DNA from: Fictibacillus marinisediminis | Lineage (GTDB): Bacteria; Bacillota; Bacilli; Bacillales; Fictibacillaceae | Direction of reading: 5' to 3' | Length of the DNA: 64,000 nt | Assembly (NCBI RefSeq): GCF_023149135.1 | Contig: NZ_JAIWJX010000002.1 | Coordinates: 1,426,001 to 1,490,000 of the forward strand | Shown: one piece after another, positions 25,106 through 57,437 of the stretch | Position numbering within the stretch: position 1 is the first letter of the stretch | How the letters are laid out: the number at the start of each line of letters is the position of its first letter | Notes under the pieces: model-generated | The model's input: only the letters and a program-made list of their open reading frames with translations | The model's database searches: none | What the model was told of the DNA's origin: nothing | Program-made: the position numbers and the translations under genes

Positions 25106-25114
25106 TAGTCACAC

Positions 25115-31933: not shown

Positions 31934-32068
31934 GGAAAACACCCCTTTTCTTCATTTGAGGATCCATAGACCAATCAATTAACCGGAAAAAAGGGAAGGT
32001 TCATTTTAAAGATGAAAGTAGAAACGCTGCACATGGGGTGAGACAGGTTAATTTGTACATCCTATGAA

Positions 32069-35534: not shown

Positions 35535-36408
35535 CTTCTGCCCACCTTTTCATTAAACGATATAGTCCGCGTTCGAGAAGTGCGCTAGCCATATCTCTGC
35601 GATAAGAAGCAGAAGCGCGGATGTCAGAGATCGGCATGACTTCCTTCCAGGCCACTTTACCAATGTTGGCGATCATTTCATTCGTCAGTGCACCGAGTGT
35701 CAGCAGTGCCTCGCACTTTCTCGCCCGTATGGCTGTTGGACCAGCCGAACCGAAAGCTATACGGCCGCCAGTACACTGGTTTGTTCCTTCCTTCATGGAA
35801 AGCGTAACCGCAACATTGACAATCGAGATCGATTGAGCCTTCCGCGGACCGAGCTTTTGAAAGATACCGATGTCATTTTTATCTCGGACATTGAACGCAA
35901 TTTTAGTGATGATTTCATTAGGATTAGCTGCGGTTTTTCCTGGACCGATAAAGAAGTCCTCCACATCCATCTCTCGTTTTCCGGATAATGAAGTAAGCTC
36001 AATAACCGCTCCAAGTGCATATAAAGCAGGAATCGTATCACCCGCAGGGGAGGCTGTCGCAATATTTCCTCCGAGGGTCCCCATGTTCTGCATCTGTGCT
36101 GCTCCGATTTCCTGACAGGCCTGTACAAGAACATCGGCATGTGCCTGCAGGAGAGGGGAAGCGATGATTTCAGAATGAGTCGTCATAGGTCCGATCTGAA
36201 TCTCATCCTTCTGTATCGTAATAAAACGGAGTTCTTCAACATGTTTAAGGCTTACCCAGCAATCCGGACGCCACTTTCCTTCCTTCATGCGGACGACGGC
36301 GTCTGTTCCCCCGGCTAAAAGGCGAAGGCTTGCTTTTTCGTTCTCCAGGATATAAAGACATTCCTTTAAAGAGCGTGGTGACAGCATATCAATCTCTGAT
36401 ACAAACAT
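35515..36408 (-). CDS. pucC: Xanthine dehydrogenase, FAD-binding subunit
   Basis: 297 aa, CoxM-type. FAD-binding LLAGGTDAVVRMK near residue 35 and AAQMQNMGTLGGNIATASPAGD near 100 (ribityl and phosphate contacts) are intact, and C-terminal ASASYRRDMA is conserved. ATG 36408 sits in a TAATG overlap with the stop of pucB and follows GGAGG; an upstream in-frame ATG is not supported. Transfers electrons from molybdenum and Fe-S centres to NAD+. Confidence 0.92.
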   Translation of the reverse strand: MFVSEIDMLSPRSLKECLYILENEKASLRLLAGGTDAVVRMKEGKWRPDCWVSLKHVEELRFITIQKDEIQIGPMTTHSEIIASPLLQAHADVLVQACQEIGAAQMQNMGTLGGNIATASPAGDTIPALYALGAVIELTSLSGKREMDVEDFFIGPGKTAANPNEIITKIAFNVRDKNDIGIFQKLGPRKAQSISIVNVAVTLSMKEGTNQCTGGRIAFGSAGPTAIRARKCEALLTLGALTNEMIANIGKVAWKEVMPISDIRASASYRRDMASALLERGLYRLMKRWAEDGKQSL

Positions 36409-37001
36409 TACGAATCCTCCCAACAGGCTGATTGGTAGTCGGCTTGCTCATTTAAGTTTAAAAGAATACTTGGTTCATTGATTTCCACAGTCGCAATTTC
36501 GTTCTGACGGTTGCTGAGGAAATGGCGGAGTCCCTGTGTTTGTTCGCTGATGCTGCAAAGCTCTGGATAAAATTGCTCTGGTATAAGCAGGGGATGTCCG
36601 CGTTTTCCATTAAAGGCAGGGATAATGATTGAGACAGGCTGTTCACCGTGAAACTTGTACAGCTGCCTGATGACGTTCAGCGAGAGCGGCTGATCCACCG
36701 CAGCAATGACTACGCCTGTAGAAGAGGGGCTTAAACCTGCCATTCCTGCTTTGATGGACGAGCATTTCCCAGATTCATAGGCTTTGTTTATGACTGTTTT
36801 TACGTTGTAAGAGCTGAGTTCCTTTGACAGCTCTGAAGCCTTATACCCCAGTATGACTGCAATGTCGTCTATTCCGGCGTTTAACAATGTTTCGGTTTGG
36901 TAGCGAACGAGTGAGGTCTCTCTCCATGGAAGCAGAGCTTTTAATGTACCCATTCTGGATGAGCGGCCGGCGGCGAGCAGGATGGCCGAGACGGAAGGCA
37001 T
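36408..37001 (-). CDS. pucB: Molybdenum cofactor cytidylyltransferase-like protein (PucB/MocA)
   Basis: 197 aa. NTP-transferase fold with SAILLAAGRSSRMGTLKALLPW at the N terminus and AAVDQPLS near residue 90. Members modify molybdopterin to the dinucleotide form needed by xanthine dehydrogenase. The reading frame stays open far upstream inside pucE; ATG 37001, one base after the pucE stop, gives the family length. GTG 37013 is an alternative. The ribosome site is weak, so coupling to pucE is likely. Confidence 0.85.
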   Translation of the reverse strand: MPSVSAILLAAGRSSRMGTLKALLPWRETSLVRYQTETLLNAGIDDIAVILGYKASELSKELSSYNVKTVINKAYESGKCSSIKAGMAGLSPSSTGVVIAAVDQPLSLNVIRQLYKFHGEQPVSIIIPAFNGKRGHPLLIPEQFYPELCSISEQTQGLRHFLSNRQNEIATVEINEPSILLNLNEQADYQSACWEDS

Positions 37002-37002
37002 C

Positions 37003-37485
37003 CTAGAGTTCACGTGCTGAAAACTGCCGGGAGGCCGCTGTCTGTACTGCTTTAAGTATTTTTGTATAGCCTGTACACCTGCAAAGATTTCCGCCAAGTG
37101 CCCGTTTAATTTCATCGAGCCCCGGAACATGGCCGATAGAAGTTAAATAAGCTCGTGAAGCCACAATCAGTCCCGGTGTACAATATCCGCACTGGGTCGC
37201 CCCTTCATCAACAAACGCTTGCTGTACGGAATCCATATTTCCTTTCGTTCCGATTCCTTCTACCGTGACCACCCGTTCTCCTTGAACTTGTCCTGCAAGC
37301 ACTAAACATGAACAGACGGGTACATCGTTCAGCAGAACCGTACAGGAACCGCATTCTCCTTTTCCACAGCATTCTTTGCTGCCTGTTAGTCCCGCATCTT
37401 CCCGCAGCACATCGAGTAAAATCTTTGTCGGACTGCATGTTACCGAAACGTCCTTTCCATTTACGCAAAAATCAATGGTCTTCAA
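37003..37485 (-). CDS. pucE: Xanthine dehydrogenase, 2Fe-2S subunit
   Basis: 160 aa. Plant-type [2Fe-2S] cluster cysteines in CCGKGECGSC (about residues 39-48) and a distal Cys at about 60; second cluster motif QCGYCTPG near 98 and LCRCTGY near 133. TTG 37485 follows GGGGAGG at 8 bases. First gene of the minus-strand operon, so its promoter lies in the 375-base divergent region. In B. subtilis pucE is last of pucABCDE; here it is first. Confidence 0.92.
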   Translation of the reverse strand: MKTIDFCVNGKDVSVTCSPTKILLDVLREDAGLTGSKECCGKGECGSCTVLLNDVPVCSCLVLAGQVQGERVVTVEGIGTKGNMDSVQQAFVDEGATQCGYCTPGLIVASRAYLTSIGHVPGLDEIKRALGGNLCRCTGYTKILKAVQTAASRQFSAREL

Positions 37486-37860: not shown

Positions 37861-39189
37861 ATGGCAGCACTCAAAAATTGGAAGGTTGGAGTACTCGGGT
37901 TACAGCATGTTCTGGCCATGTACGCAGGAGCGGTTATCGTACCGCTGATTGTAGGGCCGGCGATCGGTATGAACGCCCAGCAGCTGGCATATCTCATTTC
38001 CATTGATCTGTTTACTTGCGGAATTGCCACACTTCTGCAGGTCATTGGAGGAAAGCATTTCGGCATCAAGCTCCCAGTCATTCTCGGCTGTACGTTCACG
38101 GCGGTAGCCCCAATGATCGCGATTGGAAAGCTGGAGGGGATCACCGCCATTTACGGTGCAATTATCGCTTCGGGGCTTGTCGTCATGGTGCTCTCACAGT
38201 TTGTGGGAAAGATCCTGAAATTTTTTCCGCCGATTGTTACCGGCTCGGTCGTACTCATCATCGGGGTATCGCTCATACCGGTGGCGATGAATAATGCAGC
38301 GGGCGGGCTCGGTTCGAAAGGATTCGGCAGCCTTGAAAATTTATCGCTCGCCAGTTTTACGTTTGTGCTCATCATTCTGATCAACCGGTTCTCCAAAGGA
38401 TATGTACGGGCCATTTCTGTTCTTTTATCGCTGATCGCCGGAACAGTACTTGCTTCTTTTATGGGGCTCGTAGATGTTACACCGGTTAAGGATGCTTCTT
38501 GGTTCCATCTTGTACAGCCGTTTTATTTTGGCGTTCCGGAATTTCATTTTTCTGCCATCCTCACGATGAGCATCGTTGCGATTGTAAGCATGATTGAATC
38601 TACTGGTGTCTTCCTTGCTTTGAGTGACATTTGCGAAAGAAACCTTAAGCCGGAAGATATTAAAAAAGGCCTTCGTGCTGAAGGACTTGCAGTTATGATC
38701 GGAGGCGTTTTTAATTCCTTTCCGTATACGTCCTTCTCTCAAAATGTAGGTCTCGTGGCTTTAACCAAAGTAAAAACGAGAAATGTAGTCATGGCTGCAG
38801 GAGGGCTGCTGCTCATTCTCGGTCTTCTTCCAAAGATAGCGGCGCTGACGACAATCATTCCAACGGCTGTTCTGGGAGGTGCGATGGTTCCGATGTTTGG
38901 GATGGTCATTGCGTCTGGCGTAAAGATGCTCTCTCAGGCTGATTTTTCAAACAATGAAAATTTGCTGATCGTCGCCTGTTCCGTTGGGATCGGGCTTGGT
39001 ACAGCGGTCGTTCCCATGGTGTTCAGCCAGCTGCCGGACAGTGTCAGGCTGCTCGTTGAAAACGGAATTGTAATCGGAAGTTTGACAGCAATTTTGCTCA
39101 ATCTAGTATTTAATTTTAAGTCTATGAATATAGATGAGCAGGAAAGGATGGAGCAGCTGAAATCGGATGCTTCTGCAGAGGCTTTATAG
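37861..39189 (+). CDS. Xanthine/uracil permease family transporter (PbuX/PucJ/PucK-like, NCS2)
   Basis: 442 aa, about 12-14 membrane helices. GLQHVLAMYAGAVIVPLI near the N terminus, PVILGCTFTAVAPMI at about 79, and SQNVGLVALTKVKTR near 292 (the NCS2 signature Q-N-x-G) identify a xanthine/uric acid:cation symporter. ATG 37861 follows AAGGAGGCAGG; the frame extends upstream through the 21-bp repeat to 37630 without a site. It is the first gene of the plus-strand island and would feed xanthine to the pathway genes behind it. Confidence 0.92.
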   Translation: MAALKNWKVGVLGLQHVLAMYAGAVIVPLIVGPAIGMNAQQLAYLISIDLFTCGIATLLQVIGGKHFGIKLPVILGCTFTAVAPMIAIGKLEGITAIYGAIIASGLVVMVLSQFVGKILKFFPPIVTGSVVLIIGVSLIPVAMNNAAGGLGSKGFGSLENLSLASFTFVLIILINRFSKGYVRAISVLLSLIAGTVLASFMGLVDVTPVKDASWFHLVQPFYFGVPEFHFSAILTMSIVAIVSMIESTGVFLALSDICERNLKPEDIKKGLRAEGLAVMIGGVFNSFPYTSFSQNVGLVALTKVKTRNVVMAAGGLLLILGLLPKIAALTTIIPTAVLGGAMVPMFGMVIASGVKMLSQADFSNNENLLIVACSVGIGLGTAVVPMVFSQLPDSVRLLVENGIVIGSLTAILLNLVFNFKSMNIDEQERMEQLKSDASAEAL

Positions 39190-39205: not shown

Positions 39206-39232
39206 AGGGGCATGTCAAAAATGCCCCTTTTT
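39206..39232 (+). terminator. Terminator-like hairpin between permease and BMC operon
   Basis: AGGGGCAT pairs with ATGCCCCT, then five T. Only 41 bases follow before the next start, too few for an independent promoter, so partial readthrough is probable and the hairpin may tune expression of the catabolic genes against the permease. Confidence 0.75.
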
Positions 39233-39273: not shown

Positions 39274-40755
39274 ATGGACTTGATTTTAAAAAATGCAATG
39301 ATTCCACAAGGAGACCGTACAGTCATCACCAACATCCTCGTGCATGAAGGAAAGATAACAGGTTTTTGCAGTGATATTCATTTTTTAAATGCGGACAAGG
39401 TGATCGACATGGAAGGAAGGCTTGTCGTCCCTGGGTGTATTGATCCGCATACACATTTTATGGATCCAGGCTTTACACACCGCGAAACATTCGCTACTGG
39501 ATCAAGATCGGCAGCAGCAGGCGGGCTGACAACGATCATTGACATGCCTTGCTGTTCCAAGCCTTCTGTTCGGGACGGTGAAAGTTTTCAGAAGAAAATT
39601 GCCCCGATACGGGGACAGGCTTATATCGATTATTGCTTCTGGGGCGGCATGACCGGAGAAGACGCGAGGAACGGATGGATTGATAATATTTATCCGCAGA
39701 TGGACGAAGGGGTGGTGGCTTTCAAGGTTTACATGACGCCATCAGTACCAACGTTCCCGAAAGTATCGGATGGCGAGATGCTGGAGATCTTCCAAAAGGT
39801 CGCAAAAACCGGCATGCCGATAGGTGTTCATGCTGAAAACTACGATATTTGCACGTTTTATACCGAGAAGTTGAAGAAGGAGGGGCGCGAAGATGGTCCG
39901 GCTTGGGCTGAGGCACGGATGGCGCTCGCTGAAAAAGTGGCGATCGAGCTGATCATCAGCTATGCAGAAGCAACAGATGCACGGGTGCACGTCGTTCATA
40001 TGAGTACGAAAGAAGGCGTAAAACTTGTCCGGGAAGCCAAAAAACGGGGAGTTAAAGTAACCGCTGAAACGTGTCCGCATTACTTGATGCTTAACGCCCA
40101 GGATTCCATGAGTGAGAGAGGGACGTTCGCTAAGATCGCTCCGCCGCTTCGGGGCAAAGAAGATAACCGGTCACACTGGCAGGCACTTGCAGATGGAACG
40201 ATTGATTTTGTAGGGACCGATCACGCGCCATATGAGATTGCGACGGAAAAAGCAGCCGCAGACTCATCGATCTGGAACAGTTTCCCGGGCATTCCGGGAG
40301 TGGAAACAATGGTGCCTATTCTCGTCAGTGAAGGTTTGAACAAAGGACGCTTATCATTGTCCCGCTTTGTGGAAGTAACGAGTAAGAATGCAGCGATCCA
40401 TTATGGCATCTATCCGAAAAAAGGTGCAATGGAAATCGGCAGTGATGCGGATTTTACGGTTATTGATCTTGATTGCGAGTGGGAGATCGATGAGAAGCAG
40501 ACAGAATCCATGGCAAAATATAACCCGCTGCATGGCATCAAGCTTAAAGGCCGGCCGGTGCAGACGATTGTCAGAGGTAACATGGTCTATAACTATGAAG
40601 CCGGCGGGATTGTAGGTGAAGCCGGATATGGCGAGTACGTCAAACGGCAAAGCATCCAGCGCCTTGACCGGACTTTGAAGTATGAAAACTATGAAGGAGC
40701 GATTAAAACAACAGCACCTAAATCCGGCCGCCAGCAGCTTGAAAAAAGCAAGTAA
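39274..40755 (+). CDS. Cyclic amidohydrolase (hydantoinase/dihydropyrimidinase/allantoinase family), candidate xanthine ring-opening enzyme
   Basis: 493 aa, metallo-dependent TIM barrel. Binuclear site complete: His59 and His61 in DPHTH, carboxylated Lys151 in AFKVYMT, His186 in VHAEN, His242 in VVHMST and Asp316 in GTDHAP. Enzymes of this family hydrolyse cyclic amides (dihydropyrimidines, hydantoin, allantoin). In this setting I infer xanthine amidohydrolase, forming 4-ureido-5-imidazolecarboxylate; allantoinase would be the alternative but no uricase or allantoin genes lie here. AAAAGGGAGAG precedes ATG 39274. The last 30 residues are a charged tail. Confidence 0.85.
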   Translation: MDLILKNAMIPQGDRTVITNILVHEGKITGFCSDIHFLNADKVIDMEGRLVVPGCIDPHTHFMDPGFTHRETFATGSRSAAAGGLTTIIDMPCCSKPSVRDGESFQKKIAPIRGQAYIDYCFWGGMTGEDARNGWIDNIYPQMDEGVVAFKVYMTPSVPTFPKVSDGEMLEIFQKVAKTGMPIGVHAENYDICTFYTEKLKKEGREDGPAWAEARMALAEKVAIELIISYAEATDARVHVVHMSTKEGVKLVREAKKRGVKVTAETCPHYLMLNAQDSMSERGTFAKIAPPLRGKEDNRSHWQALADGTIDFVGTDHAPYEIATEKAAADSSIWNSFPGIPGVETMVPILVSEGLNKGRLSLSRFVEVTSKNAAIHYGIYPKKGAMEIGSDADFTVIDLDCEWEIDEKQTESMAKYNPLHGIKLKGRPVQTIVRGNMVYNYEAGGIVGEAGYGEYVKRQSIQRLDRTLKYENYEGAIKTTAPKSGRQQLEKSK

Positions 40756-40770
40756 GAGAGGAGACCGTAC

Positions 40771-41361
40771 ATGGAACTGAGAGGAAAGAAGCACGTAGTC
40801 GTTGTGATTGATATGCTGAATGACTTTATCGGAGAAAAAGCGGCGCTCCGCTGCGAAAACGGCGAAAAGATCGTTCCCTCCATCAAAGAGCTCGTTGATT
40901 TTTGCCATGAGGAAAGTATTCAGGTCGTTTTTGTACAGGAAGCTCACCGGAAAAACGACCGGGACTTCCGGGTCCGTCCGGTCCATGCCATCAAAGGGAC
41001 ATGGGGTTCTCAGTTTATTCCAGAACTGCAGCCCGATGAGAGCAAAGGAGATTATATCGTCCAAAAAAGGAGGCACAGTGCATTCAGCTATACCGATTTT
41101 GACCTGTTCTGCCGGGAAGAAGAGATCGATACGGTCGTCCTGACGGGTGTTTGGACCAATGTATGTGTAAGAAGCACTGGTTCTGATGCGCTGTACCATG
41201 GCTACAATGTGATCTGCCTGTCTGACTCCACGGCTTCAAAAGATGATTCCATGCACGAATCCGGGCTTCGGGACATCGATCTTTTTGGCGACATCATGTC
41301 AACAAAGGAATATATGGAAGCGGCCAGGAAAAAGTTTTCAAAAAATAGCCAGGTTGTTTAA
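40771..41361 (+). CDS. Isochorismatase-family amidohydrolase, candidate ureido-imidazolecarboxylate hydrolase
   Basis: 196 aa. Catalytic triad Asp14 in VVIDMLNDF, Lys99 in VQKRRHSAF and Cys132 in WTNVCVRST are all present; this resembles N-carbamoyl-type hydrolases (ureidoacrylate amidohydrolase, N-carbamoylsarcosinase) more than nicotinamidases. That chemistry, removal of a carbamoyl group as CO2 and NH3, is what the second step of the clostridial xanthine route needs. GAGAGGAGACC lies before ATG 40771, 15 bases after the amidohydrolase. Substrate is inferred. Confidence 0.83.
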   Translation: MELRGKKHVVVVIDMLNDFIGEKAALRCENGEKIVPSIKELVDFCHEESIQVVFVQEAHRKNDRDFRVRPVHAIKGTWGSQFIPELQPDESKGDYIVQKRRHSAFSYTDFDLFCREEEIDTVVLTGVWTNVCVRSTGSDALYHGYNVICLSDSTASKDDSMHESGLRDIDLFGDIMSTKEYMEAARKKFSKNSQVV

Positions 41362-41367
41362 CCTGCC

Positions 41368-41937
41368 ATGGCCCGAAACAAACGAATCGTTGTAGGAATT
41401 ACCGGAGCGAGCGGATCATTATATGGCTACTCGCTCGTCCGGGCCCTGCATCAGCTTGGGGTAGAAACCCATTTGATCGTGACGGAAATGGGAGAGAAAG
41501 TCTTGCAGTTTGAGTGCGGTGTAGGAATGGAGACGGTGAAACAATATGCAGAAGTGCACAGCAACAAGAACCTGTTTGCCTCTGTGGCGAGCGGCTCCTT
41601 TTTAACAGACGGGATGGTTGTTGTGCCATGTTCCATGAACACGTTGGGCGCGATGGCCAATGGTGTAGGAGATACCTTATTGAGCCGGTCGGCCAGTGTC
41701 ATGCTGAAAGAGAAAAGGCAGCTGATTGTCGTTCCAAGGGAAGCGCCGTTTCACCTGATCCATCTTCAGAACATGACGAGGCTTGCTGAAGCGGGTGCCT
41801 GCATTATGCCGGCCTCACCCGGGTTTTACCATAAACCGAAAGAGATATGGGAACTGATTAATTTTATGTCCGGCCGGATTCTGGACATGTTGGGCATTGA
41901 TCATGAGCTTCTACAACGATGGGGGGAGAAAGCATGA
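41368..41937 (+). CDS. UbiX-like flavin prenyltransferase
   Basis: 189 aa. FMN-binding GITGASGS at residues 10-17, and VVVPCSMNTLGAMANGVGDTL with the conserved S-M-N-T-L of UbiX/Pad1. The dimethylallyl-phosphate site PREAPFHLIHLQNM is intact. UbiX makes prenyl-FMN, the cofactor of UbiD-type decarboxylases. It lies 6 bases after the hydrolase stop with only a weak site, and overlaps the UbiD gene by four bases (ATGA). Pairing with the neighbouring UbiD is certain by context. Confidence 0.93.
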   Translation: MARNKRIVVGITGASGSLYGYSLVRALHQLGVETHLIVTEMGEKVLQFECGVGMETVKQYAEVHSNKNLFASVASGSFLTDGMVVVPCSMNTLGAMANGVGDTLLSRSASVMLKEKRQLIVVPREAPFHLIHLQNMTRLAEAGACIMPASPGFYHKPKEIWELINFMSGRILDMLGIDHELLQRWGEKA

Positions 41938-43274
41938 ACCCTTCTTCACTGCGTGCCCTGCTTGACCACTGGGAAGCGGATAATAAACTTCTCAGGGTGA
42001 AAAAAGAAGTAAACCCCCTGTATGAGCTCGGAGCTGTTCTCAATGCCAGGCAGGGGAGGCAGCCGTTCTACTTTGAAAAAGTAAAAGGCTACTCTTCACC
42101 CATGGTTGGCGGCTTAGGCGGGGATCGTGCCCTCCTGGCGGACAGCATCGGCATTGCACCGGATCAGTTTGTTCCAAAGATTATTGATTCAATTGTTTCC
42201 CCGATCCCAACACGATTGATCGGAACAGGACCGGTTCATGAAAACGTGGTTCTGGAGCCATTTGATCTGGATGCGCTCTTTCCTATTCCAACCTATCACG
42301 GAGATGATTCCGGCGCTTATTATGTTTCAGGAATTCTTGTCGTGAAAGATACAAGCGGAAAAAAGAGATATACATCGATCAGAAGGATGCAATTCTTAGG
42401 TGAAAACAAGACGAACGTGCTGATTACCTCTCCTGAACTTCTCCAGCAATTTTATGAGTATGAAGAGCGCGGTGAACCGATGGAAGTCGCTGTGATGTTT
42501 GGAGTAGTGCCTGCTGTGGTGCTCAGTTCCCAGATCAGCACACATCTGTATCATGCAGATAAACTTGATGTTGCGGGTTCTTTGATCGGCAAACCGCTTG
42601 ATGTGGTGCAGTGCAAAACCGTGGATCTGGAGGTTTTGGCAGAAGCGGAAATCGTTCTGGAAGGCAAAATGATCCCGCATGAACGTGAGATGGAAGGCCC
42701 GTTCGGAGAACTCGCTGGTTTTTATGGTACAAGAGCTCCTCAGCCAGTTATTGAATTTTCAGCGGTAACCTACAGAGACAATGCCATCTGCCAGACGATC
42801 TTTCCTTCGAGCTATGAGGAGAGGCTTCCGATGGCGCTTGTACGGGAAGCCACACTTCTGAGTACGGTCAGACAGACGGTGCCGAACGTGAAACAAGTCC
42901 ATATTACAATGGGCGGAGTGGCAAGATTTCATGCGGTAATTCAGATTGAAAAGAGGTCGGAAGGTGACGGGAAGCAAGCGGCGATTGCTGCCTTTGCGAG
43001 TGATAAGGACTTAAAGCACGTTATTGTGGTAGATGAAGATGTGGATATCTTTGACCCGGAGGATGTGGAATGGGCGATGGCTGTAAGAGTACAGGCCGAT
43101 CAGGATATTTTTATCGTACCCGGTGCAAAAGGCTCTCCGCTGGAAGCGTCTCACAATGTCAGGGGAGTCACAGCGAAAATGGGGATTGACGCTACCGTGC
43201 CGCTGGCCCATAAGGAATCGTTCAAACGTACGTCCATACCGTTCGGGCCCATTGATCTGGAAGATTATTTGTAA
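41934..43274 (+). CDS. UbiD-family prenyl-FMN decarboxylase, candidate aminoimidazolecarboxylate decarboxylase
   Basis: 446 aa. The catalytic core REMEGPFGELAGFYG contains Glu254 and Glu259, spaced as in UbiD/Fdc, and Arg150/Arg151 of SIRRMQFLGEN gives the active-site Arg; so the enzyme should be active. UbiD members decarboxylate aromatic or alpha,beta-unsaturated acids, including five-ring heteroaromatics. I infer 4-amino-5-imidazolecarboxylate as substrate. ATG 41934 follows GGGGGGAG. Directly followed by BMC shell genes, which would be unusual for ubiquinone-type or phenolic-acid enzymes. Confidence 0.9.
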   Translation: MNPSSLRALLDHWEADNKLLRVKKEVNPLYELGAVLNARQGRQPFYFEKVKGYSSPMVGGLGGDRALLADSIGIAPDQFVPKIIDSIVSPIPTRLIGTGPVHENVVLEPFDLDALFPIPTYHGDDSGAYYVSGILVVKDTSGKKRYTSIRRMQFLGENKTNVLITSPELLQQFYEYEERGEPMEVAVMFGVVPAVVLSSQISTHLYHADKLDVAGSLIGKPLDVVQCKTVDLEVLAEAEIVLEGKMIPHEREMEGPFGELAGFYGTRAPQPVIEFSAVTYRDNAICQTIFPSSYEERLPMALVREATLLSTVRQTVPNVKQVHITMGGVARFHAVIQIEKRSEGDGKQAAIAAFASDKDLKHVIVVDEDVDIFDPEDVEWAMAVRVQADQDIFIVPGAKGSPLEASHNVRGVTAKMGIDATVPLAHKESFKRTSIPFGPIDLEDYL

Positions 43275-43292
43275 AGCAAGGGGGGACATTGA

Positions 43293-43556
43293 TTGAATGC
43301 AATTGGCATGATTGAAACGAGAGGCCTGACTGCAGCGATTGAGGCACTGGACGCCATGGCCAAAGCGGCAAATATAAAGATGACAGGATTTAAAAAAGTC
43401 GGCTCAGGCCTTGTCACCGTCATTATTGAAGGAGATGTAGCCGCTGTGTCGTCTGCCATCGAAGTAGGCAGGCAGGCCCACACCCAGACGGGGGGAGAAC
43501 TGATTTCTTCTAATGTCATTCCCCGGCCTCACCCCGAATTGTCCAAAATTCTATAA
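43293..43556 (+). CDS. BMC-domain shell hexamer protein (BMC-H), first
   Basis: 87 aa, one BMC domain. The start NAIGMIETRGLTAAIEALDAM and the pore loop KVGSG at about residues 34-38, then VTVIIEGDVAAV, are as in PduA-type hexamers with a small polar pore. TTG 43293 follows AAGGGGGG at 7 bases. Forms hexameric facets of the protein shell of a microcompartment. One of three single-domain shell paralogues in this operon. Confidence 0.96.
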   Translation: MNAIGMIETRGLTAAIEALDAMAKAANIKMTGFKKVGSGLVTVIIEGDVAAVSSAIEVGRQAHTQTGGELISSNVIPRPHPELSKIL

Positions 43557-43572
43557 AAGGAGGTGAGTCCAT

Positions 43573-44508
43573 GTGTCGGAATTCATGCGAGCCATCGTAC
43601 AGGAAGTGTTAAAAAGCAATGATCACCCCGCAAGAGCGAAACAGGAACTGTCAGAGAAGAGGAGAGAAACAGCTCAAACAAAGAAAGCGCAAGAGCTCTA
43701 CCGGCCGAACTACCAGAAGCTGAATAAGGAGAAGCGTCTTGGAAGTGCAGCTGGTTCTCCACCTGTAAAGGCCGAAAAAAAAGAAAAACACTCATCGTTC
43801 AGCAAGGATCCGGGGAGTGAGCTCGTATCCAAACTTCAAGTTCTTTCTCTTACTCAAGGCATTCCATCCCGCCAAGATACAGAAACACACCATAGGCCAG
43901 AGAGGCATAACGGCGATGAACCTTCAGTAAAGTCATTTGGCAAAACAAAATGCGGATTTTCTGTATGGCTATACTCAAATCTCCAGCCTGAAACGATGGA
44001 ATGGTTTCATCGGCCGATCCCCGCAAAAGCGGTCGCTGTTTTTGCTTCTCAGGTTTCATCTCCCGGCCATCTGGTGATCGTTCAAGAGTGGCTGGCACAG
44101 AACGGAGATATTAAATACTTCATCCAATGGGATAAAAACGGCCAGAAGCCTTTTCTTCTTGAACTCTATCACAATGATAGCAGCGATTTGGAAGCAGCCA
44201 TACGAACTCTGTTTCAGACGCTGAACCACCAATCGGAAAAAAAGATCAAACGTTTTTATATCGAACAGCCGGGAGCTTGGCTCCTTAAGCAGCTTGAGGT
44301 CTCATGCACTAGAGAATCACTCGCGATCATAGAAGGAATGTCGCGTTACGAGACGATTGCTCTACTTCTTCCGGTCTCTGCAAATCTATCAAAATGGAAT
44401 ATACGCTTCAAAATTGAAGAAGGTTACTTTTTACTTTACGGACCCCATCAGCACCTTTCCAGCTGCTTGCCGAGCGTCTATAAGATGCTGGATGGCAATT
44501 TATATTAG
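43573..44508 (+). CDS. Unknown BMC-associated protein with N-terminal encapsulation-peptide-like helix
   Basis: 311 aa; not a family I recognise. Residues 1-16 (MSEFMRAIVQEVLKSN) have the amphipathic spacing of encapsulation peptides that bind shell proteins. Residues about 18-120 are polar, lysine- and proline-rich and probably disordered, a linker. Residues about 125-311 are a folded domain without known motif (FSVWLYSN, YFIQWD, YFLLYGPH). GTG 43573 follows AAAGGAGGTGAG. It lies between two BMC-H genes, so it is probably cargo, a scaffold or an assembly factor. Confidence 0.75.
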   Translation: MSEFMRAIVQEVLKSNDHPARAKQELSEKRRETAQTKKAQELYRPNYQKLNKEKRLGSAAGSPPVKAEKKEKHSSFSKDPGSELVSKLQVLSLTQGIPSRQDTETHHRPERHNGDEPSVKSFGKTKCGFSVWLYSNLQPETMEWFHRPIPAKAVAVFASQVSSPGHLVIVQEWLAQNGDIKYFIQWDKNGQKPFLLELYHNDSSDLEAAIRTLFQTLNHQSEKKIKRFYIEQPGAWLLKQLEVSCTRESLAIIEGMSRYETIALLLPVSANLSKWNIRFKIEEGYFLLYGPHQHLSSCLPSVYKMLDGNLY

Positions 44509-44526
44509 ATAAGGATGGTGGAAGCA

Positions 44527-44841
44527 TTGTATGCATTAGGCATGATTGAGACGGTAGGATATTGTGCCGCTGTTTCAGCAGCTGACGCGGCTGTTAAAGC
44601 GGCTGACGTAAAGATAGCCGCCATCGAGAAGGTGATCGGGGTTCGCGGCGCTCTTGGTGTTACCTTGCATTTGAGCGGAGATGTCGCCGCTGTTGCTTCA
44701 GCAGTAGAAGCAGGAAAAAAAGAGGCAGAGAGGGTGGGTACTGTCATTTCAGCACACGTCATTCCAAGAACCCATACGAATGTGGCGGAAATGCTTCTGT
44801 CAAAGTTTACCTTGAATTCAGGCGATGCGGCGAAGGAATAG
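44527..44841 (+). CDS. BMC-domain shell hexamer protein with enlarged pore loop, second
   Basis: 104 aa from TTG 44527 ([12 protein letters not shown]..., matching the five residues that precede MIET in the first shell protein; ATG 44515 would add four residues but has its purine run directly against it). The BMC fold is evident ([27 protein letters not shown]). The pore region reads [10 protein letters not shown], four residues longer than the usual K-x-G-S-G, so the pore should differ in size and charge (an Arg is placed there). The C-terminal tail is 15-20 residues longer than in the other two. Confidence 0.9.
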
Positions 44842-44896
44842 AACAAGCAAAAACATAGAATCTCAGCAAACCAAAGAGACCGGGAGGAATGAAAAA

Positions 44897-45175
44897 ATGG
44901 GAGAAGCTCTAGGCTTGATCGAAACAAAGGGCCTTGTCGGGGCGATTGAGGCAGCAGATGCAATGGTAAAAGCTGCAAACGTCGAGATCTGCGGCTATGA
45001 AAAAGTAGGCTTCGGACTTGTTACAGTTATGGTCAGAGGAGATGTTGGAGCAGTGAAGGCTGCAACAGATGCAGGCGCCAGTGCGGCAAGCCGAGTGGGA
45101 GAACTCGTATCCGTTCATGTGATCCCGCGGCCTCATAGTGAAATCGAAAGAGCAATGCTTTCTAAAGGAGAGTAA
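44897..45175 (+). CDS. BMC-domain shell hexamer protein, third
   Basis: 92 aa. [28 protein letters not shown] at the start, pore loop KVGFG (Phe in place of the usual Ser) at about residues 37-41, and [18 protein letters not shown] as in PduA/PduJ. ATG 44897 is chosen since CGGGAGGAATG precedes it; the frame continues upstream to 44825 without a site. Third hexamer paralogue of the operon. Confidence 0.95.
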
Positions 45176-45177
45176 TC

Positions 45178-45906
45178 GTGCATGACGCCAGGCAGAGCGC
45201 TCTGGTCAGGAATACATTGCTGCATATGCTTTGTCCGCCAGGAGAAAAAGTTCCCTATGTGCTCTCCCTGCTAACCTATCATTTTACAGGGATGGAAGAA
45301 GGGCTTGCCCTTCTCCGTGAAGCAGGAAAAAGCAAGATCAGGCTGGAAGTGTTCACAGAAAAAATCCTGTTCCGCCATTTCACGAAAGAACATCTTGCTG
45401 GGGAAAGCAATCATGATGCCTGGTATCCCAGTTCAAGTCTTACTGAGGATAAGATGCGAATGGCCGATTGTATCCTTATTCCTGTACTTTCTTTTTCTCT
45501 TGCAGCCGATCTTTTGCGATTTAACGACCAGCGGGATTTTGTCCGTATCATCCTGCAAGCATTATTAAGCGGTAAAAAAGTTGCTGCCCTGCCGTATGGC
45601 AACGATCCTTTTCATAAAGTATTCCGCAGTAAGGAACTGGATCGAGGATCAGAATACTTGAAAGCAGAGCTGCACAAAACACTTTTTCAGTTGAAGAAGC
45701 TTGGTGTTACATTGCTGAGAGATAGGGGTGGCCTTGCCTCCTGGCTGAACGATAGCGGCCAAACGCAGTCTGTCATCACAGAGGCAGATATCCTGTCTGC
45801 AGCAAAAGCACAGAAGAAGTTGCTGATTGCGGAAGAACATACCATTATCACACCGCTGGCGCGGGATGCAGCAAAACAATATGGTATAAAAATCAGCAGG
45901 CAGTAA
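45178..45906 (+). CDS. BMC-associated flavoprotein-like protein
   Basis: 242 aa, soluble. The body (VPYVLSLLTYHFTGMEEGL, CILIPVLSFSLAADLL, GKKVAALPYG) resembles the flavoprotein/HFCD-like Rossmann proteins found in several BMC loci. The end AAKAQKKLLIAEEHTIITPLARDAAKQYGIKI is a tail shared with EutQ/EutT-type and glycyl-radical BMC flavoproteins (I-T-P-x-A-x-D). Could bind FMN and help UbiX/UbiD, or be a BMC assembly-related protein; unproven. GTG 45178 begins 3 bases after the shell gene and is only weakly primed by GGAG. Confidence 0.65.
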   Translation: MHDARQSALVRNTLLHMLCPPGEKVPYVLSLLTYHFTGMEEGLALLREAGKSKIRLEVFTEKILFRHFTKEHLAGESNHDAWYPSSSLTEDKMRMADCILIPVLSFSLAADLLRFNDQRDFVRIILQALLSGKKVAALPYGNDPFHKVFRSKELDRGSEYLKAELHKTLFQLKKLGVTLLRDRGGLASWLNDSGQTQSVITEADILSAAKAQKKLLIAEEHTIITPLARDAAKQYGIKISRQ

Positions 45907-45918
45907 GGAGCGGACGAC

Positions 45919-46197
45919 ATGCAAATGGGTTTAGTTATTGGACGGGTAACAGCAACCAGAAAAGATGAAAAGCTGATAGGTACGAAACTGCTGATCACCC
46001 AGCCGATCGGTATCAGTGAATCTCCTCAGCAAATGCCGATCATCGCTGTTGATACGGTGGGGGCGGGAGTAGGAGAAAAAGTTTTATATGTCACAGGCAG
46101 TATGGCTTCGCGGGCAGCAGCTGACAAAGATGCCCCTATAGATGCAGCAATCGTAGGAATTATTGATAGCCTGGATTGGGAAAGGTCAGGAGGTTGA
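45919..46197 (+). CDS. EutN/CcmL-family BMC vertex pentamer (BMC-P)
   Basis: 92 aa. MGLVIGRVTATRKDEKLIGTKLLI and VDTVGAGVGEKVLYVTGS are the conserved halves of the EutN/CcmL/CsoS4 fold, which caps the twelve vertices of the shell. Only one pentamer gene is present, enough to close a shell. It overlaps the preceding context by none; AAGGAGCGGACG precedes ATG 45919. The next gene starts 5 bases after its stop. Confidence 0.95.
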   Translation: MQMGLVIGRVTATRKDEKLIGTKLLITQPIGISESPQQMPIIAVDTVGAGVGEKVLYVTGSMASRAAADKDAPIDAAIVGIIDSLDWERSGG

Positions 46198-46201
46198 ATT
46201 C

Positions 46202-48010
46202 ATGGATACAAAAGGTATTAAAGAAGCCATCCAGTGGCGGAAACTCATTGATGTGCTGCTTGATGCCAAACAATTTGCAGATACCGTATTAAAAGGCGGA
46301 CAATTTATCAATGTCATAACCCGTGAGATCTATCAGGCCGATGTGGCTATAAAAGGGGAATATATCCTGATGGCAGGGGACTGCGAAAGACTGATTGGTC
46401 CTTCCACAAAGGTTGAAAATGTCGCCGGCCACTATATTTGTCCCGGTTTTATTGATTCGCATATGCATTTTGAAAGCGCAATGCTTACGGTTACTGAATT
46501 TTCCAAGCTGTCCATTCCTACAGGAACAACGACACTTGTTGCGGATCCCCATGAGATTGGTAATGTCCTCGGTGTTCATGGCATGCAGGAGATGGTCAGG
46601 GAGGCAAAGACGCTTCCTAACAACGTATTTTTTACAGTGCCATGCCTGACTCCAGATGCGCCGGGATTGGAGACGGCCGGCCAGGATATCACATCAGCGG
46701 ATATGAAGGAACTGCTAAACGATCCTCATGTCCAGGGAATTGGTGAAATACAGGGGTTCAGCAATGTCAGGCCTGTGTTTGAGAACGCCCCTGAATTGAT
46801 AGACGATTTGATTGCTTCGGTCTCTTATGCCAAAAGCATCGGCAAAACGATCGAGGGAAATGCTCCGGCCTTGTTTGGAGAAGAGCTCGCCGCTCATATT
46901 ATCAGCGGAGGTACCCATGTATCCTGCCATGAGACAACAACGAAAGAAGAAATGGTGGAGAAACTTCGCTACGGAGTAAGTGTGTTTATGCGGGAGGGTT
47001 CATCTCAGCGGAATATGGCCGAGTGCATCCGGGCGATCACGGAAGAAGGCATGGATTCGAGGCGAGCCATCCTTGTTTCGGATGATATGGTGCCAGAAGA
47101 CTTAATGAATTCCGGTCATATGAATGATATCGTCAGAAGGACGATTGCCCAGGGGATTGATCCGGTGGAAGCGATTCAGATGGTGACGATCAATCCGGCG
47201 GCTCACTTCGGCTTCAGGGATATCGGGGTACTGACACCAGGAAAGCGCGCAGACATCGCTGTAATCAGCGATCTTATTAACATGACGGTTGACCAAGTGT
47301 ATCTTAGCGGCAGAAAGGCGGCACAACAGAATAAACTGACGACAGATATTCCCTCCTATACGTATCCTGAAAGTGTGAAGTGTTCTGTGAAAAGGAAACC
47401 GGTAAAAGCGCAAGATCTAGTGCTGGCGTCGCAAGCCTCAAGCGCAAAGGTAAGAGCGATCGAAGTGATACCCGATCAAAATCTTACAGGTGCCCGTGAA
47501 TTTGAACTGAAAGTAAAAGACGGCATCATTCAGCCTTGCCTTCAGCAGGATGTTCTTCCGCTCCTGGTGATCGAACGGCACGGCAGAAGCGGAAGAATCG
47601 GGAAAACATTTATTCATGGATTTAAGCTGAAAAGAGGCGCGATTGCAGAAAGCGTCGCCCATGACACACATAATATCATCGTGACCGGTACTAACTATGA
47701 CGACATGGTTACAGCAGTCAACCGGGTTATTGCTATGAATGGCGGCCTGGCGCTAATCCTTGACGGAAAAGTAGTTGGGGATATGGCACTCAATATAGGC
47801 GGGCTGATGACCGATGAGATGACAGGCGTGGAGGTCAGTGAAAAGATTACAGAACTTCACAGGCTCGCCCAAGAAGAATTGGGATGCGGGATCCACGTGC
47901 CCTTTATGCATTTATCTTTTCTCTCACTCGTTACAAGCCCTGAGTGGAAGATTACCGACATGGGCCTTATTGATGTCGACCGCTTCCAAGTCATTCCAAC
48001 AGTATTGTAA
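46202..48010 (+). CDS. Adenine-deaminase paralogue with altered active site, candidate 4-aminoimidazole deaminase
   Basis: 602 aa, same family as Ade. Metal motifs HMHFES at 87-92, PHEIGNV at 116-122, HE at 243-244 and REGSSQRN are kept. The canonical D-G-H is E218-G219-N220 here, and the S-C-V-P-A segment reads P-C-L-T-P. The N terminus is about seven residues longer than that of the true Ade at 28749, with a helix at 5-30. These changes, and its place between shell and pathway genes, suggest another substrate: an aminoimidazole is the obvious candidate. GGAGGTTGAATTC sets ATG 46202. Confidence 0.85.
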   Translation: MDTKGIKEAIQWRKLIDVLLDAKQFADTVLKGGQFINVITREIYQADVAIKGEYILMAGDCERLIGPSTKVENVAGHYICPGFIDSHMHFESAMLTVTEFSKLSIPTGTTTLVADPHEIGNVLGVHGMQEMVREAKTLPNNVFFTVPCLTPDAPGLETAGQDITSADMKELLNDPHVQGIGEIQGFSNVRPVFENAPELIDDLIASVSYAKSIGKTIEGNAPALFGEELAAHIISGGTHVSCHETTTKEEMVEKLRYGVSVFMREGSSQRNMAECIRAITEEGMDSRRAILVSDDMVPEDLMNSGHMNDIVRRTIAQGIDPVEAIQMVTINPAAHFGFRDIGVLTPGKRADIAVISDLINMTVDQVYLSGRKAAQQNKLTTDIPSYTYPESVKCSVKRKPVKAQDLVLASQASSAKVRAIEVIPDQNLTGAREFELKVKDGIIQPCLQQDVLPLLVIERHGRSGRIGKTFIHGFKLKRGAIAESVAHDTHNIIVTGTNYDDMVTAVNRVIAMNGGLALILDGKVVGDMALNIGGLMTDEMTGVEVSEKITELHRLAQEELGCGIHVPFMHLSFLSLVTSPEWKITDMGLIDVDRFQVIPTVL

Positions 48011-48021
48011 GGAGGGTGTCT

Positions 48022-48705
48022 ATGGGTGTGAAACTTGTAGATTTGTCACAGGAAATCTATCAGGGTATGCCTGTTTTTCCGCTGCATCAAAAAACAATGA
48101 TCTTTCCAAACATTTCTCATGAAGAAAGCATGAAGAAGATCGGATTTCCGTTCGCGACCAACAATCTTTTGATCAATGAACACGGCCCTACCCACAGCGA
48201 TGCCACGTATGAGTATGATCCCAATGGAAAATACATCGATGAGATGCCGCTGGAATTCTTTTACGGGCCCGCCGTATGCCTGGACTTGTCTCATGTTCAT
48301 CCAGAAGAGTATATTACTCCGCAGGAGCTGGAAAACGCGCTGGACGCTTCCGGCCAGATTTTGCAAAAAGGAGACATCTGCCTGTTATATACTGGCCACT
48401 ACAACAGAGCTTACGGGACGGAGGAATGGCTGACACGTTATTCCGGTTTAGATTACAGCGGAGCACGGTGGCTTGCTGAAAAAGGAGTAGTCAATATCGG
48501 GATCGATTCCCCGGCTATCGATAACCCGCTTGATCCGGATTACTCCGGCCATCTTATCTGCAAGGAATTTGGCATAACCAATACAGAAAATCTATGTAAT
48601 CTTGATCAGGTTGCCGGTATGCGTTTTCTGTATTTCGGACTGCCGTTGAGAATACGAAAAGGGACGGGATCCCCGGTTCGAGCGGTTGCCGTATTCATTG
48701 AATAA
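48022..48705 (+). CDS. Cyclase-family metal hydrolase (kynurenine-formamidase-like), candidate imidazolone-opening enzyme
   Basis: 227 aa. Metal motif H54-x-x-x-H58-x-D60 in HGPTHSDA, and HLICKEFGI near the C terminus, are those of the cyclase/formamidase family that hydrolyses amide or cyclic amide bonds (kynurenine formamidase, isatin hydrolase). Ring hydrolysis of 4-imidazolone to formiminoglycine would suit the fold. ATG 48022 follows AAGGAGGGTG. The assignment is inference from context; isatin hydrolase-like or formamidase activity cannot be excluded. Confidence 0.8.
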   Translation: MGVKLVDLSQEIYQGMPVFPLHQKTMIFPNISHEESMKKIGFPFATNNLLINEHGPTHSDATYEYDPNGKYIDEMPLEFFYGPAVCLDLSHVHPEEYITPQELENALDASGQILQKGDICLLYTGHYNRAYGTEEWLTRYSGLDYSGARWLAEKGVVNIGIDSPAIDNPLDPDYSGHLICKEFGITNTENLCNLDQVAGMRFLYFGLPLRIRKGTGSPVRAVAVFIE

Positions 48706-48716
48706 GGGGGAGAAGT

Positions 48717-49340
48717 ATGCCGATCGATCACAAATACCGTATTAAAGAAGAAATTATTATTCCGCCGTATGAAGCAAGAAGCATGCTTGTAAAAGCAGGG
48801 GAAGAACTCGTGATTATTGACATGGAAGGAAAACAGGTCGGTGACTTTGTCTGTTTTTCTCTCAATGATCATAACGAACATGTCTCACCCGTCCACATGA
48901 GGGCGAGCTTAAGCAGCATCCGCCTGAAAGAAGGAGATTTTCTTTATAGCAACCGGCGCCGGCCGCTCATGCAGCTTTTGCAGGACACGGTAGGAAAGCA
49001 CGATTTCTTTTTTCCGGCATGCGATTATTACCGATATAAAGTAGATTTCCAGCTTGAAGATCATCCGAACTGCCATGATAATCTTAATAGAGCATTAGAT
49101 ACCTATTCTTTAGGTCATCTGTCTGTACCGGATCCAATCAACTGGTTCATGAACAATGTGCTTGATGAAGAAGGCGACTATATGATTGCAGAGCCGCTGT
49201 CGAAGCCGGGGGATTTCGTTCGTTTAAAGGCGCTGGAGGATGTGGTGATCGCCTGTTCCACGTGTTCGCAGGACATGGCACCCGTAAACGGCTTTTCGGT
49301 TACTTCTTTAAAGCTGCAAGTTTTAAATAAAATGCGCTGA
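48717..49340 (+). CDS. DUF1989 (urea carboxylase-associated) family protein
   Basis: 207 aa. The C-x-x-C motif in ACSTCSQDMAPVNG near residue 178 and the acidic/His pattern near the centre (FFPACDYYRY) are DUF1989 hallmarks. Members are found beside urea carboxylase, urea/guanidine and purine genes; no biochemical role was known to me. Here it may act on the urea, formamide or glycine-amidine intermediates. AAGGGGGAGAAG precedes ATG 48717. Its stop is 15 bases before the riboswitch. Confidence 0.85.
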   Translation: MPIDHKYRIKEEIIIPPYEARSMLVKAGEELVIIDMEGKQVGDFVCFSLNDHNEHVSPVHMRASLSSIRLKEGDFLYSNRRRPLMQLLQDTVGKHDFFFPACDYYRYKVDFQLEDHPNCHDNLNRALDTYSLGHLSVPDPINWFMNNVLDEEGDYMIAEPLSKPGDFVRLKALEDVVIACSTCSQDMAPVNGFSVTSLKLQVLNKMR

Positions 49341-49354
49341 TAGAAAACTAGAAA

Positions 49355-49459
49355 GATTTCATATAGTTTCGATAATATGGATCGAAAGTATCTACCGGAG
49401 AACCTTAAATTCTCCATGCTATGAAATCGTTCTTTTCTTTTCTGTTATAAAGAAAAGGA
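49355..49459 (+). promoter_or_regulatory. Guanine-class (purine) riboswitch before the guanine-deaminase-like gene
   Basis: Aptamer 49355-49428: P1 GATTTCAT with ATGAAATC, P2 TTTCGAT/ATCGAAA with loop AATATGG, J2/3 TATCTACC, P3 GGAGA/TCTCC with loop ACCTTAAAT, and J3/1 CTATG. The specificity base is C (guanine/hypoxanthine type, not the U of adenine riboswitches). J3/1 has one or two extra bases (ATG before CTATG) against the canonical A-CTATG. Expression platform: hairpin CTTTTCTTT/AAAGAAAAG (49432-49457) takes in part of AAAAGGAGG, and its start at 49430-49432 can alternatively extend P1. So translational control is likely; ON or OFF cannot be settled by eye. Confidence 0.85.
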
Positions 49460-49467
49460 GGATATCC

Positions 49468-50805
49468 ATGCCATCGATACTTATAAAAAATGCAGAAATT
49501 GTAACGATGAATGCACAGGAAGAGATCGTTCAAGGAGATCTTTACATTGAAAACAACCGCATAACTGATATTGGCTTAAGCCTTGATTATCAGGCGGATA
49601 AAACCATAGATGCTACAAACAGAACCATCATCCCCGGGTTTATTCAAACGCATATCCATCTGTGCCAATCCTTGTTCAGAGGACAAGCAGATGATCTGGA
49701 ACTAATGGATTGGCTGAAACAGAAAATCTGGCCGCTCGAAGCATCCCATGATGAAGAATCCCTTTATTATTCGGCCATGCTTGGAATTGGAGAACTGATT
49801 CAGAGCGGTACCACTACGATCGTTGATATGGAGACCGTCAATCATACGGATTTTGCGTTTCAGGCTATTGCGAAGGGCGGTATTCGTGCACTTTCCGGTA
49901 AAGTGATGATGGATAAAGGGGAAGAAGTTCCAATCGGATTGCAGGAGAGCACATCAAAATCTCTTCAGCAAAGCGTCGACCTGCTTGAAAAGTGGCATGG
50001 AAAAGAGAATGGAAGGATACAATATGCCTTCTGTCCACGCTTTGTGGTTTCCTGTACGGAGGAGCTGCTTACAGAAGTTCAGAAACTTTCAGGCCGCCAT
50101 GGTGTTTGTGTTCACACCCATGCAGCGGAAAATCGCGGAGAGATCGCACTGGTAGAACAGGAAACCGGAATGCGCAATGTGGTTTATCTTGACCATATCG
50201 GGCTTGCCAATGAGAGGCTGATTCTGGCGCATTGTGTCTGGCTTGATGATGAGGAAAAGAACATTATAAAAAAGCGGAAGGTAAAAGTAAGCCATTGTCC
50301 AGGGTCAAACCTGAAGCTTTCCTCAGGAATCGCCGACGTGCCAGACATGCTGCAGCAAGGAATTCATCTCAGCTTAGGTGCAGACGGTGCACCCTGTAAT
50401 AACAATTTGGACATGTTGAATGAAATGAGGCTTGCAGCGCTGATTCAAAAGCCAGTCCATGGGCCTACAGCCATGAATGCGAAAACCGTATTTCGGATGG
50501 CGACCATCGGAGGAGCCCGGGCAGTAGGAATGGATCATGAGATCGGCAGCCTTGAGGTTGGAAAAAAGGCGGATCTTGCTATTTTAAACCTGAATGATTT
50601 TCATTTGTATCCCTCTTATGGTGTAGACACGATCTCTCGTATCGTCTATTCGGCCACACGGGCCGACGTCGAAACGACGATTATTGATGGAGAAGTGGTG
50701 ATGGAGAACCGCATGTTGAAGAACATGGATAAGAATGTGGTCCTTCACGAAACGAATAGATGCATCGGCCGTCTGATGAAACGGATTGAAGCCGCTTTTA
50801 TGTAA
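49468..50805 (+). CDS. Amidohydrolase, guanine-deaminase/8-oxoguanine-deaminase-like
   Basis: 445 aa. TRZ/ATZ-type amidohydrolase: His62 and His64 in QTHIHL, HTHAAEN at about 216, LAHCVWL at about 252, SHCPGSNLKLSSG near 275 and the catalytic Asp in GADGAP near 307. This branch deaminates purines and triazines (guanine, 8-oxoguanine, 5'-deoxyadenosine, S-adenosylhomocysteine). A guanine-type riboswitch in front makes guanine the best guess, yielding xanthine for the pathway. AAAAGGAGG precedes ATG 49468. Last gene of the island. Confidence 0.87.
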   Translation: MPSILIKNAEIVTMNAQEEIVQGDLYIENNRITDIGLSLDYQADKTIDATNRTIIPGFIQTHIHLCQSLFRGQADDLELMDWLKQKIWPLEASHDEESLYYSAMLGIGELIQSGTTTIVDMETVNHTDFAFQAIAKGGIRALSGKVMMDKGEEVPIGLQESTSKSLQQSVDLLEKWHGKENGRIQYAFCPRFVVSCTEELLTEVQKLSGRHGVCVHTHAAENRGEIALVEQETGMRNVVYLDHIGLANERLILAHCVWLDDEEKNIIKKRKVKVSHCPGSNLKLSSGIADVPDMLQQGIHLSLGADGAPCNNNLDMLNEMRLAALIQKPVHGPTAMNAKTVFRMATIGGARAVGMDHEIGSLEVGKKADLAILNLNDFHLYPSYGVDTISRIVYSATRADVETTIIDGEVVMENRMLKNMDKNVVLHETNRCIGRLMKRIEAAFM

Positions 50806-55789: not shown

Positions 55790-55813
55790 GTTCTTCACCT
55801 TCGTTCTGTTGAA

Positions 55814-57328: not shown

Positions 57329-57411
57329 AGCTGCCTCCATCCAAGAGTAGAATCGGGTGTTTATTTGTATATCATTCCAATAGATGAGGACTCTATTCAA
57401 TTTCGGCATAA

Positions 57412-57437
57412 GAAAAAGCACCCCGGAAAAGGGTGCT
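57412..57437 (-). terminator. Terminator after the YdcF-like gene
   Basis: AGCACCC pairs with GGGTGCT; a T run follows on the minus strand. Confidence 0.8.

Follow-up and report, generated by a model that had tools for sequence, protein, structure and literature searches.

Gene content and class of the microcompartment operon

The DNA analysed here, a 64,000-nucleotide stretch (the window) of the 4.57 Mb, four-contig genome of Fictibacillus marinisediminis, contains a bacterial microcompartment (BMC) operon in which shell genes stand among candidate genes for purine degradation. It occupies positions 39274–49340 on the plus strand and, by open reading frame (ORF) and family searches, begins with an allantoinase-like amidohydrolase gene and ends with a DUF1989 gene; alongside three BMC-H genes and one BMC-P gene it has nine others, with intergenic spacings of -19 to 55 bp. 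An earlier reading of the sequence alone (the original prediction) had described this tight run, and both the run and the amidohydrolase, cysteine hydrolase, UbiX/UbiD and Ade paralogue that it named are found by the searches, but its inventory did not name the PF04199 cyclase-family gene, the DUF1989 gene (the candidate for the last catabolic step) or what looks like a degenerate BMC-T gene. The plus-strand order is permease, amidohydrolase, isochorismatase-family hydrolase, UbiX, UbiD, BMC-H, a 311-aa protein, BMC-H, BMC-H, a 242-aa protein, BMC-P, Ade paralogue, PF04199 hydrolase, DUF1989, purine riboswitch and a dadD-like gene, and beside it on the minus strand are ade, an NCS2 permease and a xanthine dehydrogenase (XDH) operon that includes the 2Fe-2S subunit. 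No conventional metabolosome core had been predicted, and none of its families (aldehyde dehydrogenase, PduL, alcohol dehydrogenase, glycyl-radical and B12 enzymes) has a match among the operon genes (Pfam, E <= 0.001; the remaining window genes were scanned in part).

The enzyme set of the xanthinase pathway, together with XDH, is present at the locus as judged by family and synteny only. The first gene (39274–40755; all operon genes are on the plus strand) codes for an allantoinase/hydantoinase-like amidohydrolase which, by synteny and literature, is a candidate xanthine amidohydrolase (xanthinase) that would open xanthine to 4-ureido-5-imidazolecarboxylate. It falls below every equivalog cut-off among the matches listed (25 of 55 families) and exceeds the broad dihydroorotase subfamily-domain model TIGR00857 (311.1 vs 279.05). 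The cysteine hydrolase (40771–41361; PF00857), whose gene immediately follows that for the candidate xanthinase at the 44 complete Bacilli loci described below, is the candidate for conversion of this product to 4-amino-5-imidazolecarboxylate. A UbiX flavin prenyltransferase (41368–41937; NF004685 and TIGR00421, both above cut-off) would supply prenylated flavin mononucleotide (prenyl-FMN) to UbiD (41919–43274; TIGR00148, 320.6 bits, above cut-off), the candidate decarboxylase that would yield 4-aminoimidazole. The Ade paralogue (46202–48010), whose TIGR01178 score is barely over the cut-off (474.2 vs 472.5 bits) and far under that of the other ade gene (670.2), is the candidate deaminase producing 4-imidazolone, and the PF04199 cyclase-family hydrolase (48016–48705) is the candidate 4-imidazolonase, which would form formiminoglycine. 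The start of the Ade paralogue was refined from 46163 to 46202 and that of the third BMC-H gene from 44825 to 44897, both being ATG codons with an upstream ribosome-binding site.

The locus belongs to an already known class. Tong 2023 reportedly characterised a prenyl-FMN decarboxylase and four hydrolases, the latter from different families, and the five enzyme types at the window locus fit this set. A 2025 paper (PMC12507026, citing Tong 2023) describes the gene cluster of an oxygen-independent xanthinase pathway as recently identified, in Clostridia and Bacilli, and reports a slow xanthinase (kcat 0.1 s^-1). Axen 2014 gave the name BUF to a type of locus that has no metabolosome core enzymes and raised the question of a third BMC paradigm, and Ravcheev 2019 assigned that cluster to anaerobic xanthine degradation/utilisation (Xau); the xanthine-type class mentioned in the original prediction thus exists. 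Sutter 2021 mentions BUF1, BUF2 and BUF3, and we infer that BUF1 is the BUF of Axen 2014. The prediction had also stated that no biochemical proof was known, which the cluster identification and the xanthinase kcat in PMC12507026 make out of date for the pathway; for the compartment itself it stands, with no experiment found among the literature matches listed. We consider it likely that the locus encodes a BUF/Xau-class microcompartment that degrades purines by the oxygen-independent xanthinase pathway, with a DUF1989 protein at the last step and a PduB-like trimer in the shell, where the reactions, the encapsulation and the reason for it are read from sequence, synteny and one structure model.

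Comparison across related genomes, which had been proposed as a check, agrees with this. Searching with the first enzyme yielded 46 related loci, two of which (L045 and L059) are cut by contig ends, leaving 44 complete. The twelve-gene order xan-iso-ubiX-ubiD-H1-u311-H2-H3-hyp242-P-ade2-cyc (u311 and hyp242 being the 311- and 242-aa proteins) is kept in 44 of the 46, the other two being those that are cut, and the gene run is therefore not a product of chance. Among named relatives, the nearest one found, Fictibacillus sp. FJAT-27399, has a first enzyme 99% identical to that of the window. Within the fetched 10 kb flanks there is an XDH Mo-subunit gene at 32 of the 44 loci and a PbuX-like permease gene at 30. 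Across 398 genomes of the phylum, the first enzyme has matches at E <= 1e-120 in 11 (own genome included), seven of which carry shell genes near the pathway genes. The fetched stretches of two others (G559 and G633) contain no shell genes, that of G521 is a short contig, and the match in G441 (41% identity) is probably another enzyme. Pathway enzymes together with a shell are also found in Clostridia-type genomes and in one Paenibacillus-type genome. Two variations in layout are noted: in the Paenibacillus-type G613 (L098 with L079) the first two enzyme genes are ~10 kb from the rest of the compartment operon on one contig, and in G559 and G633 (L080 and L081) the first two pathway enzymes are encoded a second time, apart from the decarboxylase.

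Shell proteins and the 311-aa protein

The shell genes recognised by Pfam are H1 (43293–43556; PF00936, 96.7 bits), H2 (44515–44841; PF00936, 77.7 bits), H3 (44897–45175; PF00936, 102.8 bits) and the BMC-P vertex protein gene (45919–46197; PF03319, 104.4 bits), each above the Pfam cut-off, and the three PF00936 genes are the only such matches genome-wide at E <= 0.001. Between H3 and the BMC-P gene is hyp242 (45178–45906), a candidate PduM/TIGR02536-like structural protein that matches TIGR02536, two PduM models and PF15953, all below cut-off, with the PduM-type matches restricted to its C-terminal part. The 311-aa protein u311 (43573–44508), between H1 and H2, is matched by no Pfam model, and a search of 397 genomes of the order detected it in 10 (own genome included). 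In the three clostridial counterparts scanned, the protein at the same position has two PF00936 stretches, and in a profile comparison the counterparts match u311 over both of them (97.6%, E 3.9e-12; 0.6% for an unrelated control). An AF2 model gives u311 a pair of BMC domains and the PduB/EutL trimer fold, and its structural matches are EtuB, PduB and EutL, the best of them PduB-type trimers. The model also predicts an N-terminal amphipathic helix at residues 3–14 (block pLDDT 73 and 56), with a mean hydrophobic moment of 0.52 vs 0.25 +/- 0.13 in shuffles. From sequence and model, u311 looks like a cryptic, degenerate PduB-type trimeric shell protein (BMC-T) whose N-terminus resembles an encapsulation peptide and which carries an RPNYQ motif, and the shell is thereby richer than the original prediction stated.

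It is possible, with a lower though real probability, that u311 is instead a cargo or scaffold protein with a BMC-like fold that does not become part of the shell. It has evolved much faster than H3 (21–34% identity outside Fictibacillus, where hyp242 has 26–41%, compared with 87–100% identity to the window's H3 in the 44 Bacilli loci) and is detected by no sequence model, both of which would suit such a role; however, the clostridial counterparts carry two recognisable PF00936 stretches at the same position, and PduB-type trimers are the best structural matches, which argue for a shell protein. Two side observations concern loci outside the Bacilli. In the purine-microcompartment locus L073 there is an encapsulation-peptide-like segment on a match to the diol dehydratase small subunit (L073:6801-7364; PF02287, 33.1 bits), and the clostridial-type L074 has extra genes (3589-4395, 10490-11413) for an actin-fold protein (MreB/FtsA/EutA-like) and a MerR-cupin regulator, not seen in the Bacilli loci.

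The last step: DUF1989 and formiminotransferase

In the clostridial route the formimino group is finally passed to tetrahydrofolate (PMC3519856), and Ravcheev 2019 gives the formiminotransferase gene as missing in Bacillus fordii and another Bacillus; the B. fordii strain (DSM 16014) is L043 in the present set. The F. marinisediminis genome has no PF07837 match for a formiminotransferase (XauG), and its operon ends instead with the DUF1989 gene (48717–49340; PF09347), a candidate formiminoglycine iminohydrolase. The DUF1989 protein has sequence matches to the structures 3oru and 9q59, and in an alignment of 46 sequences C102, C119 and C183 are each identical in 97% or more.

The distribution of the two families was compared by searching 40 pathway-gene genomes for FTCD_N and the window's DUF1989 protein. 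These comprise 21 of the 46 named loci plus genomes from the order-wide u311 and phylum-wide first-enzyme searches (G441 left out), and contain three repeats by contig coordinates, leaving 37 distinct genomes. DUF1989 is present in 28 of these (at least 68% identity), FTCD_N in eight, both in none, and neither in one, G559, which is also without the cyclase gene and may be an incomplete genome. (A match to the cyclase-family gene at E <= 1e-40 is found in 35 of the 37, and in none of seven congeners of L040.) The informative instance is Neobacillus notoginsengisoli (L040, L100), which has the sole locus without DUF1989 among the 44 complete Bacilli loci; the M20-family gene discussed below is also absent, and genes for FTCD and FTCD_C (formiminotransferase and cyclodeaminase) are directly behind dadD in the same gene run. 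In L099 a formiminotransferase gene directly follows the cyclase gene, the slot that DUF1989 has in Bacilli. Elsewhere it is directly before the cyclase gene (L083), directly upstream of the first enzyme (L073) or within the wider cluster (L101, L102). The most likely reading is that DUF1989 stands in for the clostridial formiminotransferase.

An M20-family gene directly follows DUF1989 in 38 of the 43 Bacilli loci with DUF1989, the other five being the five Fictibacillus loci in the set. The DUF1989 member CgdAB is a carboxyguanidine deiminase (PMC11271267); from this activity, the FTCD exchange and the M20 neighbour, we infer a folate-free step in which DUF1989 would convert formiminoglycine to N-formylglycine and NH3, and the arrangement suggests that the adjoining M20 amidase of most Bacilli loci then releases glycine and formate. 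Some neighbourhoods are in keeping with these products. In L052 a glycine riboswitch precedes genes for serine hydroxymethyltransferase (SHMT), serine dehydratase and GcvH upstream of the operon, together with a molybdopterin oxidoreductase gene that we read as formate dehydrogenase-like; in L054, the SHMT gene, both serine dehydratase genes and the GcvH gene are nearby on the opposite strand; and in L101, a more distant case, serine dehydratase genes precede the cyclase gene.

Several points weigh against this assignment. The mutual exclusion follows the split between Bacilli and other Firmicutes and so represents about two independent events rather than 37; Fisher's exact p of 2.3e-7 ignores relatedness and is not independent evidence. 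Neither F. marinisediminis nor its congener G306 has a close M20 relative (best 33% identity, among paralogues only, and 32%), and Fictibacillus would have to use another amidase. Glycine/serine neighbours occur in only two loci (L052, L054) among L005-L059 and L073-L093. With the remainder of the pathway unchanged, DUF1989 could cleave formiminoglycine to glycine and formamide, as formiminoglutamase does its substrate, or act on another substrate in an unrelated nitrogen step, with the formiminotransferase link reflecting lineage history. The tracking of taxonomy and the lack of a close M20 relative in Fictibacillus would both be accommodated, but we think this rather unlikely, as DUF1989 and M20 are absent together within the Bacilli where FTCD and FTCD_C are in the same gene run (L040/L100), the gene behind the cyclase gene is DUF1989 in Bacilli and FTCD in L099, and the characterised enzyme CgdAB is a deiminase (PMC11271267).

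Purine supply, the role of the shell and known systems

The flanking genes would supply the pathway, probably outside the shell. On the minus strand, adenine deaminase (ade; 28749–30500; TIGR01178, 670.2 bits vs cut-off 472.5) would provide hypoxanthine, and is accompanied by a second NCS2-type purine permease (30584–31942; PF00860, 151.1 bits, no NCBIfam match). XDH would convert hypoxanthine to xanthine, and its operon, also on the minus strand, contains an XdhC-type maturation factor (32098–33226), the Mo subunit (33219–35534; best TIGR03196 pucD, 689 bits, below the cut-off of 783.65), the FAD subunit (35515–36423; best NF043083, below cut-off), a MocA-like Mo-cofactor cytidylyltransferase (36408–37130, ORF start over-long; NF045665 and TIGR03310, below cut-off) and the 2Fe-2S subunit (37003–37485; PF01799 and PF00111, above cut-off). 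The XdhC-type factor is in two overlapping ORFs (32098-32415 and 32402-33226) that match the first and second parts of NF045664, below cut-off; this arrangement is common to many related loci and thus looks like a real two-gene form, not a frameshift. Direct uptake of xanthine would be by a PbuX-type permease (37861–39189, plus strand; TIGR03173, 556.6 bits, above cut-off), whose ORF is over-long at the 5′ end so that the start was moved from 37630 to the ATG at 37861. An 84 bp gap with a terminator-like hairpin (39206–39228) separates it from the operon, and the two may be on separate transcripts, with the caution that such hairpins are near chance frequency (16 found vs a mean of 13.4 in shuffles). 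Downstream of the operon there is a purine riboswitch (49339–49441, plus strand; RF00167, 72.4 bits, above gathering score) followed by the 5′-deoxyadenosine deaminase-like dadD-like gene (49468–50805, plus strand; NF005557, 725.9 bits, above cut-off), and purine riboswitches are present in six of seven other loci scanned. Also in the window, on the minus strand, are spore germination genes (GerA, spore permease and GerAC; 53617–57421) and a match to the cspA thermoregulator family (25074–25457) barely over its gathering score (79.9 vs 78).

The original prediction's purine (xanthine) role is well supported, and so are its non-aldehyde role for the shell and the bearing of the divergent XDH operon on purine use. 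Degradation of another ring amide (hydantoin, allantoin, a pyrimidine or an N-heterocyclic aromatic acid) might be read from the first enzyme, which is near the allantoinase cut-off (356 vs 357.85), passes TIGR00857 and has a hydantoinase as its closest solved structure by sequence, and nicotinamide and pyrimidines were listed in Ravcheev 2019 before purines were chosen, but the PbuX permease, XDH operon, Ade and purine riboswitches, and the statement in PMC12507026 that the cluster encodes the xanthinase pathway, make it very improbable.

4-aminoimidazole and 4-imidazolone are unstable. A likely purpose of the shell, which would comprise three hexamers, the pentamer and the PduB-like trimer, is to confine these intermediates with the prenyl-FMN decarboxylase and to increase the substrate available locally to a slow xanthinase; protection of 4-aminoimidazole or of the decarboxylase is proposed on chemical grounds. 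Shell and enzyme core would be linked by the N-terminal helix of the trimer, perhaps in concert with the PduM-like protein. Two observations temper the xanthinase-compartment reading. No encapsulation peptides were seen on the operon enzymes in a partial comparison with homologues from loci whose fetched stretch has no shell genes (L077, L078, L080 and L081 for the first, second and UbiD enzymes; L083, a short contig, for the cyclase; UbiX and the Ade paralogue are without such a homologue). Uricase was not found in the F. marinisediminis genome, but it is uncommon in the order (29 of 299 genomes; 2 of the 37 pathway genomes) and its absence is weak evidence.

A broader proposal, for which we see the case as evenly balanced, is that the Bacilli purine microcompartment has exchanged a folate module (formiminotransferase and cyclodeaminase) for a DUF1989 iminohydrolase and M20 deformylase, with N-formylglycine as a catabolic intermediate and DUF1989 as formiminoglycine deiminase, and that shell and core are coupled by a fast-evolving PduB-like trimer whose RPNYQ linker recruits cargo without encapsulation peptides of its own. 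If so, a DUF1989 clade would gain a defined reaction, the missing last step noted for Bacillus by Ravcheev 2019 would be closed, and it would suggest how a compartment may bind its enzyme core without visible targeting peptides. The Bacilli concerned have an aerobic-type soil lifestyle. They would then be using a route described from strict anaerobes, and protection of unstable or oxygen-sensitive steps by the shell would be directly testable.

Two features appear to mark the Bacilli form, its DUF1989 module and its cryptic PduB-like trimer, with no description of either found among the literature matches listed. Compared with PduB of the Pdu microcompartment, u311 has ~10% identity, BMC domains beyond Pfam detection and a long disordered linker with the RPNYQ motif. 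The operon's DUF1989 protein is in the same PF09347 family as carboxyguanidine deiminase CgdAB and the N-domain of trimethylamine N-oxide demethylase, but CgdAB has two DUF1989 subunits per enzyme whereas the F. marinisediminis genome has only one DUF1989 match (E <= 0.001, operon DUF1989 as query), and there is no carboxylase gene among the operon genes. The BUF type of Axen 2014 includes a BMC-T gene, whereas the window locus has only the apparently degenerate one, not recognisable by Pfam; it also is without formiminotransferase, with DUF1989 (often with M20) in its place. As in BUF/Xau loci, shell genes are combined with amidohydrolases, a deaminase, a carboxy-lyase, an isochorismatase and a dehydrogenase, and with no metabolosome core. 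The xanthinase pathway of purinolytic clostridia differs in its classical end, formimino transfer to tetrahydrofolate (PMC3519856), but the order of the proposed chemistry is the same and so, reportedly, are the enzyme families.

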